Part shown: positions 17,945 through 59,951 of the stretch, one piece after another | Layout of the letters: each line of letters begins with the position of its first letter | Numbering within the stretch: position 1 is the first letter of the stretch | NCBI RefSeq assembly: GCF_013340205.1 | Contig: NZ_BJTG01000004.1 | Coordinates: forward strand, 372,001 to 436,000 | Direction: 5' to 3' | Origin: Anaeromyxobacter diazotrophicus | Lineage (GTDB): Bacteria > Myxococcota > Myxococcia > Myxococcales > Anaeromyxobacteraceae | DNA length: 64,000 nucleotides | Notes under the pieces: generated by a model | What the model saw: the letters and a program-made list of their open reading frames with translations, nothing else | Told to the model about the DNA's origin: nothing | The model's database searches: none | Program-made: the position numbers and the translations under genes

Positions 17945-19388
<1,444 letters not shown>

Positions 19389-19463: not shown

Positions 19464-19703
19464 GCGGTTCCGAGCGGGCGGCGGGGTGGCCCTCCGGCGT
19501 CGCTCCGGACGACCTACCGGGTTCGTACGGCGGCCGGGCCAGAAACGCGCGGAGGCCGGGCAACGCATCGTGCCGCGCCGACACGGCGCCCGAGGTCCGC
19601 GCGCCGGCGCGGCACCGGCGTTGCTGACGGCAGTACGGCGGGCGGGAGTCTCACGCAGGTCGACCTCCGCTCCTTCGGAGGGCCGCCCCGCCGCCCGCTG
19701 GCG
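19464..19703 (+). repeat. inverted duplication, copy A
   Basis: Shares collinear blocks with copy B at 19879-20122 on the opposite strand: GCGGTTCCGAGC (19464), GGTGGCCCTCCGGCG (19485), GCATCGTGCCGCGCCG (19565), CGCCGGCGCGGCACCGGCG (about 19602) and TCACGCAGGTCG (19651). Block spacing is 80 and 86 bases here against 80 and 84 in copy B. Between the blocks the copies differ by many substitutions and small indels. Confidence 0.7.
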
Positions 19704-19878
19704 GGCGTTGCCGTCCGCAGGTCGGGGTCGCTCTCGTCACTGTTGCGGTCGAGGTCGCCAGGGGCCCTGCTCACCTCGACGCCCACGTTCTCCGTGGCGT
19801 ACCGCAGGGCGGGGAGCCACTCCCGGCACGCTGCATCTCGCCTCACACGAGCGCCCCCCCCCGCTCGCGCGGACGGCC

Positions 19879-20122
19879 CCGTCCGCCGCGGGGCGGCAGG
19901 GTGGCCCTCCGCCGGAGCGCAGGCCGACCTGCGTGAGGATCCGCTCGATCGACGGGCGCTGCACCGCCGGTGCCGCGCCGGCGCGCGTTCCCCGAGCGCC
20001 TCGGCGGCGCGGCACGATGCGGTGCAAGCCGTCGAGCGTTTCTCGAACGGTGGCCGGATCTGATCGGCAGGTCGTTGCCGAGCACCGCCGGAGGGCCACC
20101 AGGACGCCCTGCTCGGAACCGC
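19879..20122 (-). repeat. inverted duplication, copy B
   Basis: Reverse-strand counterpart of copy A, separated from it by about 175 bases. Read on the minus strand it starts near 20122 (GCGGTTCCGAGC) and runs through GGTGGCCCTCCGGCG (20100-20086), GCATCGTGCCGCGCCG (20020-20005) and TCACGCAGGTCG (19936-19925). In one frame it encodes PSIERILTQVGLRS, faintly like the C-terminal part of IS91-type transposases; this resemblance is weak and should not be trusted alone. Confidence 0.7.
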
Positions 20123-20168
20123 CCCGCGTGCGGAGCCAGCGTACGCAGCCCGCGTACGAACCGCGAAT

Positions 20169-20189
20169 CGACGGCGGGCCCCGCCGTCG
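20169..20189 (-). terminator. GC hairpin directly after the rhodanese gene
   Basis: Perfect 9-bp stem CGACGGCGG/CCGCCGTCG with a 3-nt loop, beginning one base after the rhodanese stop. There is no T-tract, so it is a possible 3' end or RNA-stabilising hairpin rather than a classical terminator. Confidence 0.35.
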
Positions 20190-20190
20190 G

Positions 20191-20589
20191 TCAGGCGCCG
20201 CCCTTCACCACCGGCCTGCCCTGCTTCACCCAGCCGGTGATCCCGTCGGTCATGACGAACAGGCGCGTGTAGCCGAGCTTCGCCGCCTCACGGGCGGCGC
20301 CATGGCTCGCCATTCACTTGGGGCCGGAGCAGTAGAAGACGAGCCGCGTCGCCTTGTCCGTGGGCAGGAGGGTGTCGAGCGGGCGGTTGCCGACGTGCAC
20401 GGCGCCCGGGAGGTGGTACCGCTCCCACAGCTCGTCGATGTTGACGTCGTAGACCTTCACGTCCTTCGCCTTCATCATCCGCTCCACCTGCGCGGCGCTC
20501 ACGAGCTGGAACGGCTCGCTGGCGCGGGGCAGGGAGGGGAGGGCGAGGGCCGCCAGCGCGAGCGCGGCGGCGAGGCGGAAGCGGATCAT
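20191..20589 (-). CDS. periplasmic rhodanese-like protein, candidate selenoprotein (in-frame UGA at codon 92)
   Basis: Reading from ATG 20589 (AGGAGAAG eight bases upstream) gives a signal peptide (IRFRLAAALALAALALPSLPRA), then a rhodanese domain: VYDVNIDELWERYHLPGAVHVGN and the active-site loop LVFYCSGPK with catalytic Cys87. Codon 92 is TGA (20316-20314). The same frame then continues for 40 residues of good rhodanese sequence (MASHGAAREAAKLGYTRLF, DGITGWVKQGRPV) to a TGA at 20193-20191. Periplasmic rhodaneses usually have Cys at this spot (FYCxxPKC). A SECIS-like hairpin follows and a tRNA-Sec gene is in the window. Total 132 residues with Sec. It is 49 bases downstream of moaA on the same strand. 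Alternative: a recent TGC-to-TGA nonsense mutation leaving a 91-residue stump. Confidence 0.72.
20274..20309 (-). promoter_or_regulatory. candidate bacterial SECIS element
   Basis: Starting four bases after the UGA on the minus strand: lower stem CGAGC/GCTCG (5 bp), internal loop CATGG versus AA, upper stem CGCCGCC/GGCGGCG (7 bp, perfect), apical loop CGUGA. The apical loop begins 21 bases after the UGA and has G at its second position followed by U. The published bacterial SECIS model asks for a short apical loop with a G among the first two bases, about 16-37 bases from the UGA, so this fits. Confidence 0.6.
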
Positions 20590-20638
20590 GCGTCTTCTCC
20601 TGTGCAGCACGGCTCGAAGGTCCTGGCCCGCCAGGGCG

Positions 20639-21628
20639 TCAGCCGCCCGTCCCGATCATGGGGAGGAGCCGGCCGCGCCCGGCGGCCATGTCGTGGCGGT
20701 CGCCCTTCGCGAGCAGCGCCTCGCGGATGCGCTCCGCCACCTGGGCGTCGTCGCCCTGCGCGAGGAGCGGCAGGAGCTCCACCCGGTCGCGGCCGCCCAG
20801 GCAGGCGCGGAGCGCACCGTCGGCCCCGACCCGCACGCGGTTGCAGTCCTCGCAGAAGCTCTCGGTCATGGCCCCGATGAAGCCGACGAGCCCCTCGAGG
20901 CGCCCGGCGCCCTCGCCCGACTCGCCACGCATGTGGCGGGCCGGCCCCCAGCCGCGCGTCGCGTCGGGGGTGAGCCGGACGCCCTGCGCCCCGAGCAGCG
21001 CCTTCACCTCGGCCATGGGCACCGGCTCGCCCTCGCCGAACGGCATGAGCTCGATGAAGCGGGCGATGGCGCCCTGCCGCCAGGCGAAGCGCGCCAGGTC
21101 GCCCAGCTCGTCCTCGTTGAAGCCGCGCACGACCACCGCGTTCGTCTTCACCGAGGCGTAGCCGGCCCGGCCGGCGGCGGCCAGGCCCTCCAGGATCCGC
21201 GGGAGGGAGGCGGCGCGGCCGGAGAGGTGGGTGAGCCGCTCGGGCCGGAGCGTGTCGAGGGAGACGTTGAGCCGGAGCACCCCCGCCGCGCGGAGCGGCC
21301 CCGCCAGCCGGTCGAGGAGCTGGCCGTTGGTGGTGAGCGCGATCTCCCGGATGCCCGGGACGGCCGCGATGTCCGCCACCACCTCCAGCAGGTCGGGGCG
21401 CAGGGTCGGCTCGCCGCCGGTGAGCCGCACCCGCTCGACGCCGAGCCCGGCGAAGATGCGCACCAGCCGGGCGACGGCCTCGCGCGGGAGCCCGTCCCCG
21501 GCGCGGTGCGGGTGGGGCGAGCAGTAGCTGCACGCGAAGTTGCACGCCTCGGTGAGCGACAGGCGCAGGTAGCGGATGCGCCGGCCCTGCCGATCGGCGA
21601 GCGGCGCGCCGGAGGCGGGCGCGGTCAC
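20639..21628 (-). CDS. moaA: GTP 3',8-cyclase (molybdenum cofactor biosynthesis protein A)
   Basis: Radical-SAM enzyme of the first step of molybdenum cofactor synthesis. 329 residues: N-terminal cluster motif [35 protein letters not shown], then the C-terminal cluster [10 protein letters not shown]...CL and the C-terminal double glycine GTGG that MoaA needs. Start: GTG at 21628 overlaps the stop of the upstream HD-GYP gene (GTGA). No other moa/moe genes are in the window. The next gene downstream is the candidate Sec-containing rhodanese. Confidence 0.94.
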
Positions 21629-22764
21629 GGGCTGCCCCCGGCCGCCGCGGCGAGCGCGTCCGGCCGGCGGAGCGCCTCGAGCACCCCCCCGTCGAGCGAG
21701 AGGAAGGCCTCGGCGCAGCGCGGGTCGAACTGCGTCCCGGCGTAGCGCCGCACCTCCTCGCGCGCTTTCTCGAGCGGCCCCCCGCGCCGGTAGGGCCGGT
21801 CGCTGGTGATGGCGTCGAGCGTGTCGGCGATGGCGAAGATGCGGGCGCCGAGCGGGATCGCCTCGCCGGCGAGGCCGTGCGGGTAGCCGCGGCCGTCCCA
21901 GCGCTCCTGGTGCGCCAGCACGATGCGGGAGGGCACCTCGAGGAACGGGATGGAGCGGAGGATGGTGTGGCCGATCTCGGGGTGCCGCCGCATCTCCTCC
22001 CACTCCTGCGGCAGGAGCTTCCCGGGCTTGAGGAGGATGGCGTCCGGGACGCCGATCTTGCCGATGTCGTGGAGCAGCGCGCCGCGGGCGATGTCCGGCA
22101 GGTCGGCGGCGGGGAGGCCCATCCGCTCGGCGATGGCGAGCGTGTAGCGCACCACCCGCTGCGAGTGGTCGGAGGTCTCGTGCTCGCGGGCGTCGAGCGC
22201 CGCCACCAGGGCGTAGAGCGTGCTCGCGTAGGCCGACTCGATCTCGCGCAGCGCCTTCGAGAGCTCGGCCGTCTTCTCGCGGACGCGCCGCTCCAGGCTG
22301 GTGCGGTAGCGGTGGCGCGCCAGCTCCAGGCGGCGCTTGGCGAGCGCGCGCTCGATGGCGCGCACGAGGTCGAGCAGCTGCGGCGGCTTCGCCAGGCAGT
22401 CCGACGCGCCGCGTCGCAGCCCCTCGACCACCGCCTCGGTGTCGCCTCGCCCGGTGAGGAGGATGACCGCCGTGGAGGGCTGGTCCGCGCGCAGCCGGTC
22501 GAGGAGCTGGAGCCCCTCTTGCCGCGGCGTGTCGACGTCGCACAGCACGAGGTGAAACTCGCCCGCCTGGGCCAGCGCGAGCGCCTGCTCGGACGTGCGG
22601 GCGCACGCACAGACGTAGCCCTCCTGGACCAGCACCGCTGCGACGGCGTCGCGGGCGGCGGCGTCCTCGTCGACGAGCAGGATCCGGGTGGGCGCGGCGG
22701 GCGCGTCGCTCCCGGCCAGGACCTCGCGCGGAGATCCCGGGCGCTGGGCGATGGAGGGGCTCAC
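21625..22764 (-). CDS. response regulator with HD-GYP phosphodiesterase domain
   Basis: 379-residue two-domain regulator. About 27-145: receiver domain ([10 protein letters not shown], phosphoacceptor Asp in [14 protein letters not shown], conserved Lys in LAKPP). A coiled linker ([19 protein letters not shown]) leads to an HD-GYP domain, about 185-365: [86 protein letters not shown] proteins degrade cyclic di-GMP. GTG at 22764 is the likely start; no histidine kinase is adjacent. Confidence 0.92.
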
Positions 22765-59852: not shown

Positions 59853-59951
59853 TGGCGGTAGAGCAGGGGAATCGAACCCCCCGACAGCGCCGTTCAGCAC
59901 CATCCACCGGTTTTGAAGACCGGGCCCGGCACCAGCCCAGGACGCTCTACC
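59853..59951 (-). tRNA. selC: tRNA-Sec (anticodon UCA)
   Basis: 99-base tRNA, 5' end at 59951. Acceptor stem of eight pairs (GGTAGAGC/GCTCTACC), anticodon stem CCGGT/ACCGG with loop CTTCAAA (U33, UCA), long variable arm with GTGCT/GGCGC pairing, T stem of five pairs (GGGGG-TTCGATT-CCCCT) directly abutting the acceptor, giving the 8/5 helix of bacterial tRNA-Sec. D region CCTGG...CCGGG. Encoded GCCA at the 3' end, as in Escherichia coli selC. It decodes UGA as selenocysteine with SelA, SelB and SelD, which are not in the window. Confidence 0.95.

Follow-up and report, generated by a model that had tools for sequence, protein, structure and literature searches.

The locus

The window, by which we mean the whole 64,000-nt stretch of Anaeromyxobacter diazotrophicus DNA analysed here, carries on its minus strand (20191..20589) a gene for a predicted Sec-containing, exported rhodanese of a single domain. 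The gene starts with an ATG at 20589-20587, upstream of which lies the ribosome-binding-site region TGCACAGGAGAAGACGC (20590..20606, minus strand) with an RBS-like GGAG, and it terminates with a TGA at 20193-20191. Between these two points its codon 92 (20314..20316, minus strand) is likewise a TGA, read here as a predicted selenocysteine (Sec92) from the exchange of Cys and UGA among homologues. The frame stays open for 40 codons between UGA92 and the terminator. The UGA is preceded by FYCSGPK, that is, by the rhodanese loop FYC-SGPK-U, whose catalytic Cys87 (TGC, 20329..20331, minus strand) is invariant in an alignment of 21 rows. The original prediction had described an otherwise intact signal-peptide rhodanese with TGA as codon 92, 40 further residues, and a UGA five residues after the catalytic Cys87, and the gene agrees with it in the residues as well as in the spacings; the strand, which it left unstated, is the minus strand.

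Standard ORF calling halts at UGA92 and returns an ORF of 98 aa from an upstream GTG. Read to its terminator, the gene encodes 132 residues with one predicted Sec in a CxxxxU motif. The Pfam model PF00581 matches the protein with 51.5 bits against a gathering score of 22.2 (E 1.4e-13), and an AlphaFold2 model, for which 21 sequences of the window and the loci were used, shows the rhodanese fold (pLDDT 91), with GlpE, YgaP and Wolinella Sud among its Foldseek matches. From its signal-peptide-like N-terminal stretch, MIRFRLAAALALAALALPSLPRAS, the protein is most likely exported; N-termini elsewhere in the family likewise have a signal peptide or, in some relatives and by inspection, a lipobox-like start.

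Cysteine and UGA share one alignment column

Of the best matches to the window rhodanese in 99 genomes from its own order, many contain an internal TGA, one per gene and in the same alignment column; carriers of the UGA gene include G019 and G004. From the loci of the genome search, 80 named contig loci and further fetched stretches we pooled 149 distinct sites, at which the column is TGA in 54, TGC in 81 and TGT in 14, under a search pattern limited to U or C. Because this pattern could not reveal any other residue, the count was repeated without any constraint on the column. It then covered 156 rhodanese sites, homologous or neighbouring, and gave 97 Cys, 55 UGA and four Arg. The four Arg sites (e.g. 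VVYCFSGARSKRAA) are classical CX4R rhodaneses, members of another family that occur in the same loci. A looser start of the motif yielded 101 C, 56 U and 13 R, and the R examples printed were again of the classical CX4R type. Since the Arg sites of the free count belong to these classical rhodaneses, the column in the family of the window rhodanese, as aligned, is Cys or UGA once they are set aside. Aligning the Cys homologues, a check proposed with the original prediction, places their Cys exactly at the UGA column. Cys forms were seen in Myxococcota, Acidobacteriota, Balneolota, Pseudomonadota, Elusimicrobiota, Planctomycetota and Nitrospirota.

A sequencing error behind UGA92 is untenable, because 54 distinct sequences share the UGA column. 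Reassignment of UGA to Trp or to another amino acid was also considered and rejected, given that the family column holds only Sec or Cys and that UGA terminates other genes.

In a tree of the 149 sites, computed with the column masked, at least 13 changes between Sec and Cys are required, five of which are forced by well-supported branches; the tree rests on few columns and has many open forks. In one genome (L062) a UGA and a Cys paralogue of the rhodanese stand side by side, at ~5660 and ~6240, within about 600 bp. A second subfamily of UGA rhodaneses, with the motif FYCRGxGU-x-LS, was found at L036, L037, L184, L192 and L193; it belongs to the bacterial family of the window and lies off the tree group of the window gene itself.

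A hairpin downstream of UGA92

Immediately downstream of UGA92 lies a hairpin of the bacterial SECIS type (20274..20309, minus strand). Its lower stem of 5 bp pairs CGAGC (20309-20305) with GCUCG (20278-20274), and above an internal loop follows the apical stem-loop (20281..20299, minus strand), in which CGCCGCC (20299-20293) pairs with GGCGGCG (20287-20281) over 7 bp and encloses the loop CGUGA (20292-20288). The lower stem begins 4 nt after the UGA and the loop 21 nt after it, so that the two-tier structure of 5 bp, internal loop and seven perfect base pairs drawn in the original prediction is recovered in full. A SECIS element is expected to present a G in its loop, to hold this loop 16-37 nt from the UGA and to be kept only in UGA genes; the window hairpin has CGUGA at 21 nt, and its apical stem follows the UGA genes of the family, as set out below.

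The predicted folding energy is -23.0 kcal/mol (z -2.0) for the 45 nt from the UGA and -26.4 kcal/mol (z -2.2) for 58 nt. Measured against a null of synonymous codons, the window hairpin alone, lying in GC-rich sequence, is not significant (p ~0.06 for energy, 0.13 for pairs). Because the hairpin of this one gene is within reach of codon choice, the case for a SECIS element rests on the comparison across the family.

For covariation we used 35 distinct UGA sequences, a manual selection out of the 54 that reduces the number of near-copies; in four of the 35 the hairpin is in another register. Standard pairs fill 87.8% of the apical stem in this set, against 78.3% after shuffling and 25.7-66.1% when the stem is slid by 1-3 columns. 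Compensatory changes occur in five of the seven apical pairs, and the covariation score is 0.235 against 0.108 after shuffling. The lower stem is poorly conserved, with 64.6% of its cells paired, and in some relatives the fold is weakly predicted.

The decisive contrast is the one with the Cys genes, in that an excess of stacked pairs over the synonymous-codon null is confined to the UGA genes. An apical stack of at least 6 bp is present at the hairpin position in 89% of UGA genes and in 3% of Cys genes; the stack is 6.70 bp against 4.55 bp under the null in UGA genes, and 3.45 bp against 3.49 bp in Cys genes. This test at a fixed place is more informative than a free-energy test, and its signal is one of groups, single sequences being rarely significant (4%). 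The general minimum-free-energy test is weak, with p <0.05 for individual sequences in 13% of the UGA and 9% of the Cys set, the groups nevertheless differing overall. The loop codon of the UGA genes is CGU, GGU, CGG, GUC or AGG, with GGA and GUG as single exceptions, and all of these contain G; Cys genes have AAG, CGC, GAG and others at this place.

The terminal UGA (20193-20191), which has a hairpin of 9 bp behind it, was also tried as a Sec codon. Reading on past it gives a sequence unlike the homologues, however, and this UGA is therefore taken as the stop. The 9-bp hairpin directly after it and a 7-bp hairpin beyond (20140-20193, minus strand) could represent a terminator without a T-run.

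Selenocysteine machinery

A tRNA-Sec gene with anticodon UCA, as the original prediction had counted on for the window, lies at 59853..59951 on the minus strand; it is recognized by ARAGORN and by the Rfam model RF01852 (76.3 bits against a gathering score of 47). The search of the genome for selA, selB and selD, likewise proposed beforehand, found all three: selA in two pieces that share a frame (523 bits in all), selB with 337 bits and selD with 395 bits (G000:C2:35154-36080). The selD gene has an in-frame UGA of its own at GAGUACK, followed by a hairpin, and by its sequence is an internal comparison for the presumed decoding of UGA in this genome.

Across the relatives, selA scores above the cut-off in all nine tested genomes with the UGA form and in none of the six tested genomes that have the Cys form and lack the UGA form (G028, G029, G042, G043, G076 and G085). 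The Cys form can also occur alongside the machinery: two of its carriers, G060 and G096, have a strong tRNA-Sec. For six UGA genomes (G023, G039, G047, G049, G053 and G055), several of them incomplete assemblies, the scores of a filtered tRNA-Sec search did not clearly exceed ~50 bits; selA is present in all six.

Relation to known rhodanese selenoproteins

Five forms of rhodanese selenoprotein have been listed, including form 1 (UxxS, WP_010941598, a rhodanese-like selenoprotein predicted by bSECISearch), form 3 (CxU, NF041203) and form 5 (TsoB, UxxxxU, NF045694) (PMC13188914). The window site, U-M-A-S, itself has the UxxS pattern of form 1. FYC-x4-U-x-x-S also occurs in tandem rhodaneses from the phylum to which genome G099 belongs, presumably Desulfobacterota, and on the strength of these proteins and of the UxxS motif the window Sec site is probably the form 1 site. 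The tandem proteins differ from the window rhodanese in their length of about 440-510 aa and in their second domain. Tandem-domain rhodaneses with a C-x4-U site occur at L125-L136 in genomes of this phylum, and those Cys or Sec examples that were translated further (L095, L107 and L204) begin with a CXXCH motif.

The closest parallel is TsoB. Six TsoB genes read FYU-AGL[AT]-U-VRSDSAARVA, and the alignment shows that their predicted second Sec coincides with UGA92 of the window. TsoB differs, however, in having Sec also at the catalytic position, where the window protein has Cys87, and in its size, with frames of about 580-620 aa (model 572) that include a DsbD-like part, compared to 132 residues in the exported, single-domain window protein. 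With one Sec, 132 residues and a score of 46.7 bits where the cut-off is 805, the latter is not a member of TsoB, which is nonetheless its best match in NCBIfam release 20.0, where no model scores above its cut-off (cut-offs checked on the window protein). The rhodanese_LYCAU model NF041203 (form 3) likewise describes a small rhodanese-related (seleno)protein, but one in which Sec follows the catalytic Cys by two residues (CxU) instead of five (CxxxxU), and the window protein reaches 44 bits against its cut-off of 115. GlpE, the YgaP domain and the Wolinella polysulfide-sulfur transferase Sud (PDB 1GMX, 5HBO and 1QXN) share the fold, with TM up to 0.73 when normalised by the query, in contrast to a sequence identity of ~16-26% and the lack of selenocysteine.

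As Sec at the same rhodanese position is already known from TsoB (PMC13188914), the novelty is smaller than the original prediction implied: the window gene is a new small exported member among known rhodanese selenoproteins and not a new principle. What is new, as judged from the genes, is the predicted family of single-domain exported C-x4-U rhodaneses, which is widespread in Myxococcota. It is covered by no model of NCBIfam release 20.0, as far as the window protein represents it, and no rhodanese is among the 11 selenoproteins that were listed in 2006 for Anaeromyxobacter dehalogenans (PMC1794560); both observations suggest that annotation pipelines tend to truncate the gene at its UGA. 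One Sec site appears to link the window family with the TsoB-type and the tandem rhodaneses. Together with close pairs of Sec and Cys forms, even adjacent ones as at L062, this shared site offers small enzymes in which the effect of selenium on rhodanese chemistry could be tested. The finding should help annotators as well as those who study rhodanese chemistry, and it will be of little surprise to specialists.

Predicted decoding of UGA92 and a possible redox role

That UGA92 is where homologues have Cys and would be decoded as Sec, the central claim of the original prediction, is supported by the Cys/UGA column, the hairpin of the UGA genes, the presence of selA, selB and selD, and a downstream sequence that has not decayed. 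We regard this decoding as almost certain, while the physical insertion of Sec is something we infer. Taken as a whole, it is highly probable that the locus encodes an exported single-domain rhodanese in which SelB and tRNA-Sec insert Sec at codon 92 under the direction of the adjoining downstream SECIS hairpin, with a proposed redox chemistry of Cys87-x4-Sec92.

In this proposed active site, Cys87 would act as in rhodaneses generally and accept a sulfane sulfur, the donor being thiosulfate, polysulfide or a persulfide. Sec92, which takes the place of the homologues' Cys where the active-site loop ends, would then attack the persulfide of Cys87, sulfide would be released and a Cys-Sec selenylsulfide would form, which a periplasmic thiol/disulfide partner would reduce. 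The net result would be a redox rhodanese, either a sulfane-sulfur reductase or a persulfide transferase, and not a plain sulfurtransferase. We give even chances to the specific step assigned to Sec92, the resolution of the persulfide on Cys87. More tentative is the wider suggestion that the family constitutes a widespread, unannotated group of exported redox rhodaneses in which a Cys-x4-Sec selenylsulfide cycle serves to reduce either sulfane sulfur outside the cytoplasm, as polysulfide or persulfide, or selenium species found there. If so, its repeated switching between Sec and Cys would make it a good system for measuring what Sec contributes to a rhodanese.

The alternative that survives best accepts the selenoprotein and differs in the role of Sec92, which might be structural or position the substrate in an ordinary sulfurtransferase, or else serve an enzyme that handles oxyanions of selenium or tellurium. 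Position 92 does terminate the rhodanese loop, and in other rhodaneses a Ser or Thr there hydrogen-bonds the persulfide. The family column, however, is Cys or Sec and not Ser or Thr, and in TsoB even the catalytic Cys is replaced by Sec, so that Sec is possible at the two active-site positions alike; this argues for redox chemistry over a structural role. A role in oxyanion chemistry has a precedent in the ext cluster of Geobacter, which combines the rhodanese lipoprotein ExtH with a selenoprotein cytochrome and has been linked to the reduction of selenite and tellurite (PMC5877670, PMC6148476). No obvious neighbours of the ext cytochrome type were seen at L204, the sole UGA rhodanese locus of the Desulfobacterota type that was read at length. 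We consider this group of alternatives a reasonable competitor, though on balance a somewhat improbable one.

Readthrough of UGA92 outside the Sec pathway, by near-cognate suppression or with another amino acid, is very improbable. It draws on the fact that Sec insertion in the window organism is deduced from sequence, but it does not account for a column that, left free, holds only U or C in the family (the Arg sites being classical rhodaneses), for a SECIS-type hairpin in the UGA and not in the Cys genes, or for the co-occurrence of selA with the UGA form in the tested genomes. Still less credible is a true stop at UGA92, leaving a pseudogene or a truncated protein of 91 residues with the downstream frame as a remnant: UGA is normally a stop in this genome, a mere 40 codons follow, and ORF calling by standard rules ends there, but the UGA column is common to 54 distinct sequences whose Cys homologues are in frame throughout, the UGA genes are as conserved after the UGA as before it (mean pairwise identity 55% in the 36 residues after and 53% in the 20 before), and truncation would remove from the modelled rhodanese fold the helix 94-104, the strand 110-113 and the helix 116-122. 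Relatives with the same UGA but a decayed downstream sequence, which the original prediction had named as counter-evidence, were not what we found, as these genes keep both the downstream sequence and the hairpin.

Genomic neighbourhood

The neighbours of the rhodanese gene in the window are moaA (20639..21640, start approximate, minus strand; TIGR02666 with 288.6 bits, above cut-off), which lies co-directionally upstream with a gap of 49 nt to the rhodanese ATG, and thiC (17952..19388, plus strand). By inspection, a ThiC-like gene also adjoins the rhodanese at L011, L013, L014, L015 and L018, and in another family the neighbours resemble a transporter and an acetyltransferase. None of these neighbours (moaA and thiC here, transporter and acetyltransferase elsewhere) indicates a sulfur-redox pathway.

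Between thiC and the rhodanese gene lie two inverted copies of a palindromic dispersed repeat of ~250 bp, at 19470-19730 on the plus and 19869-20116 on the minus strand. The repeat is MITE- or REP-like, and about 30 long copies with 73-100% identity are found elsewhere in the genome.
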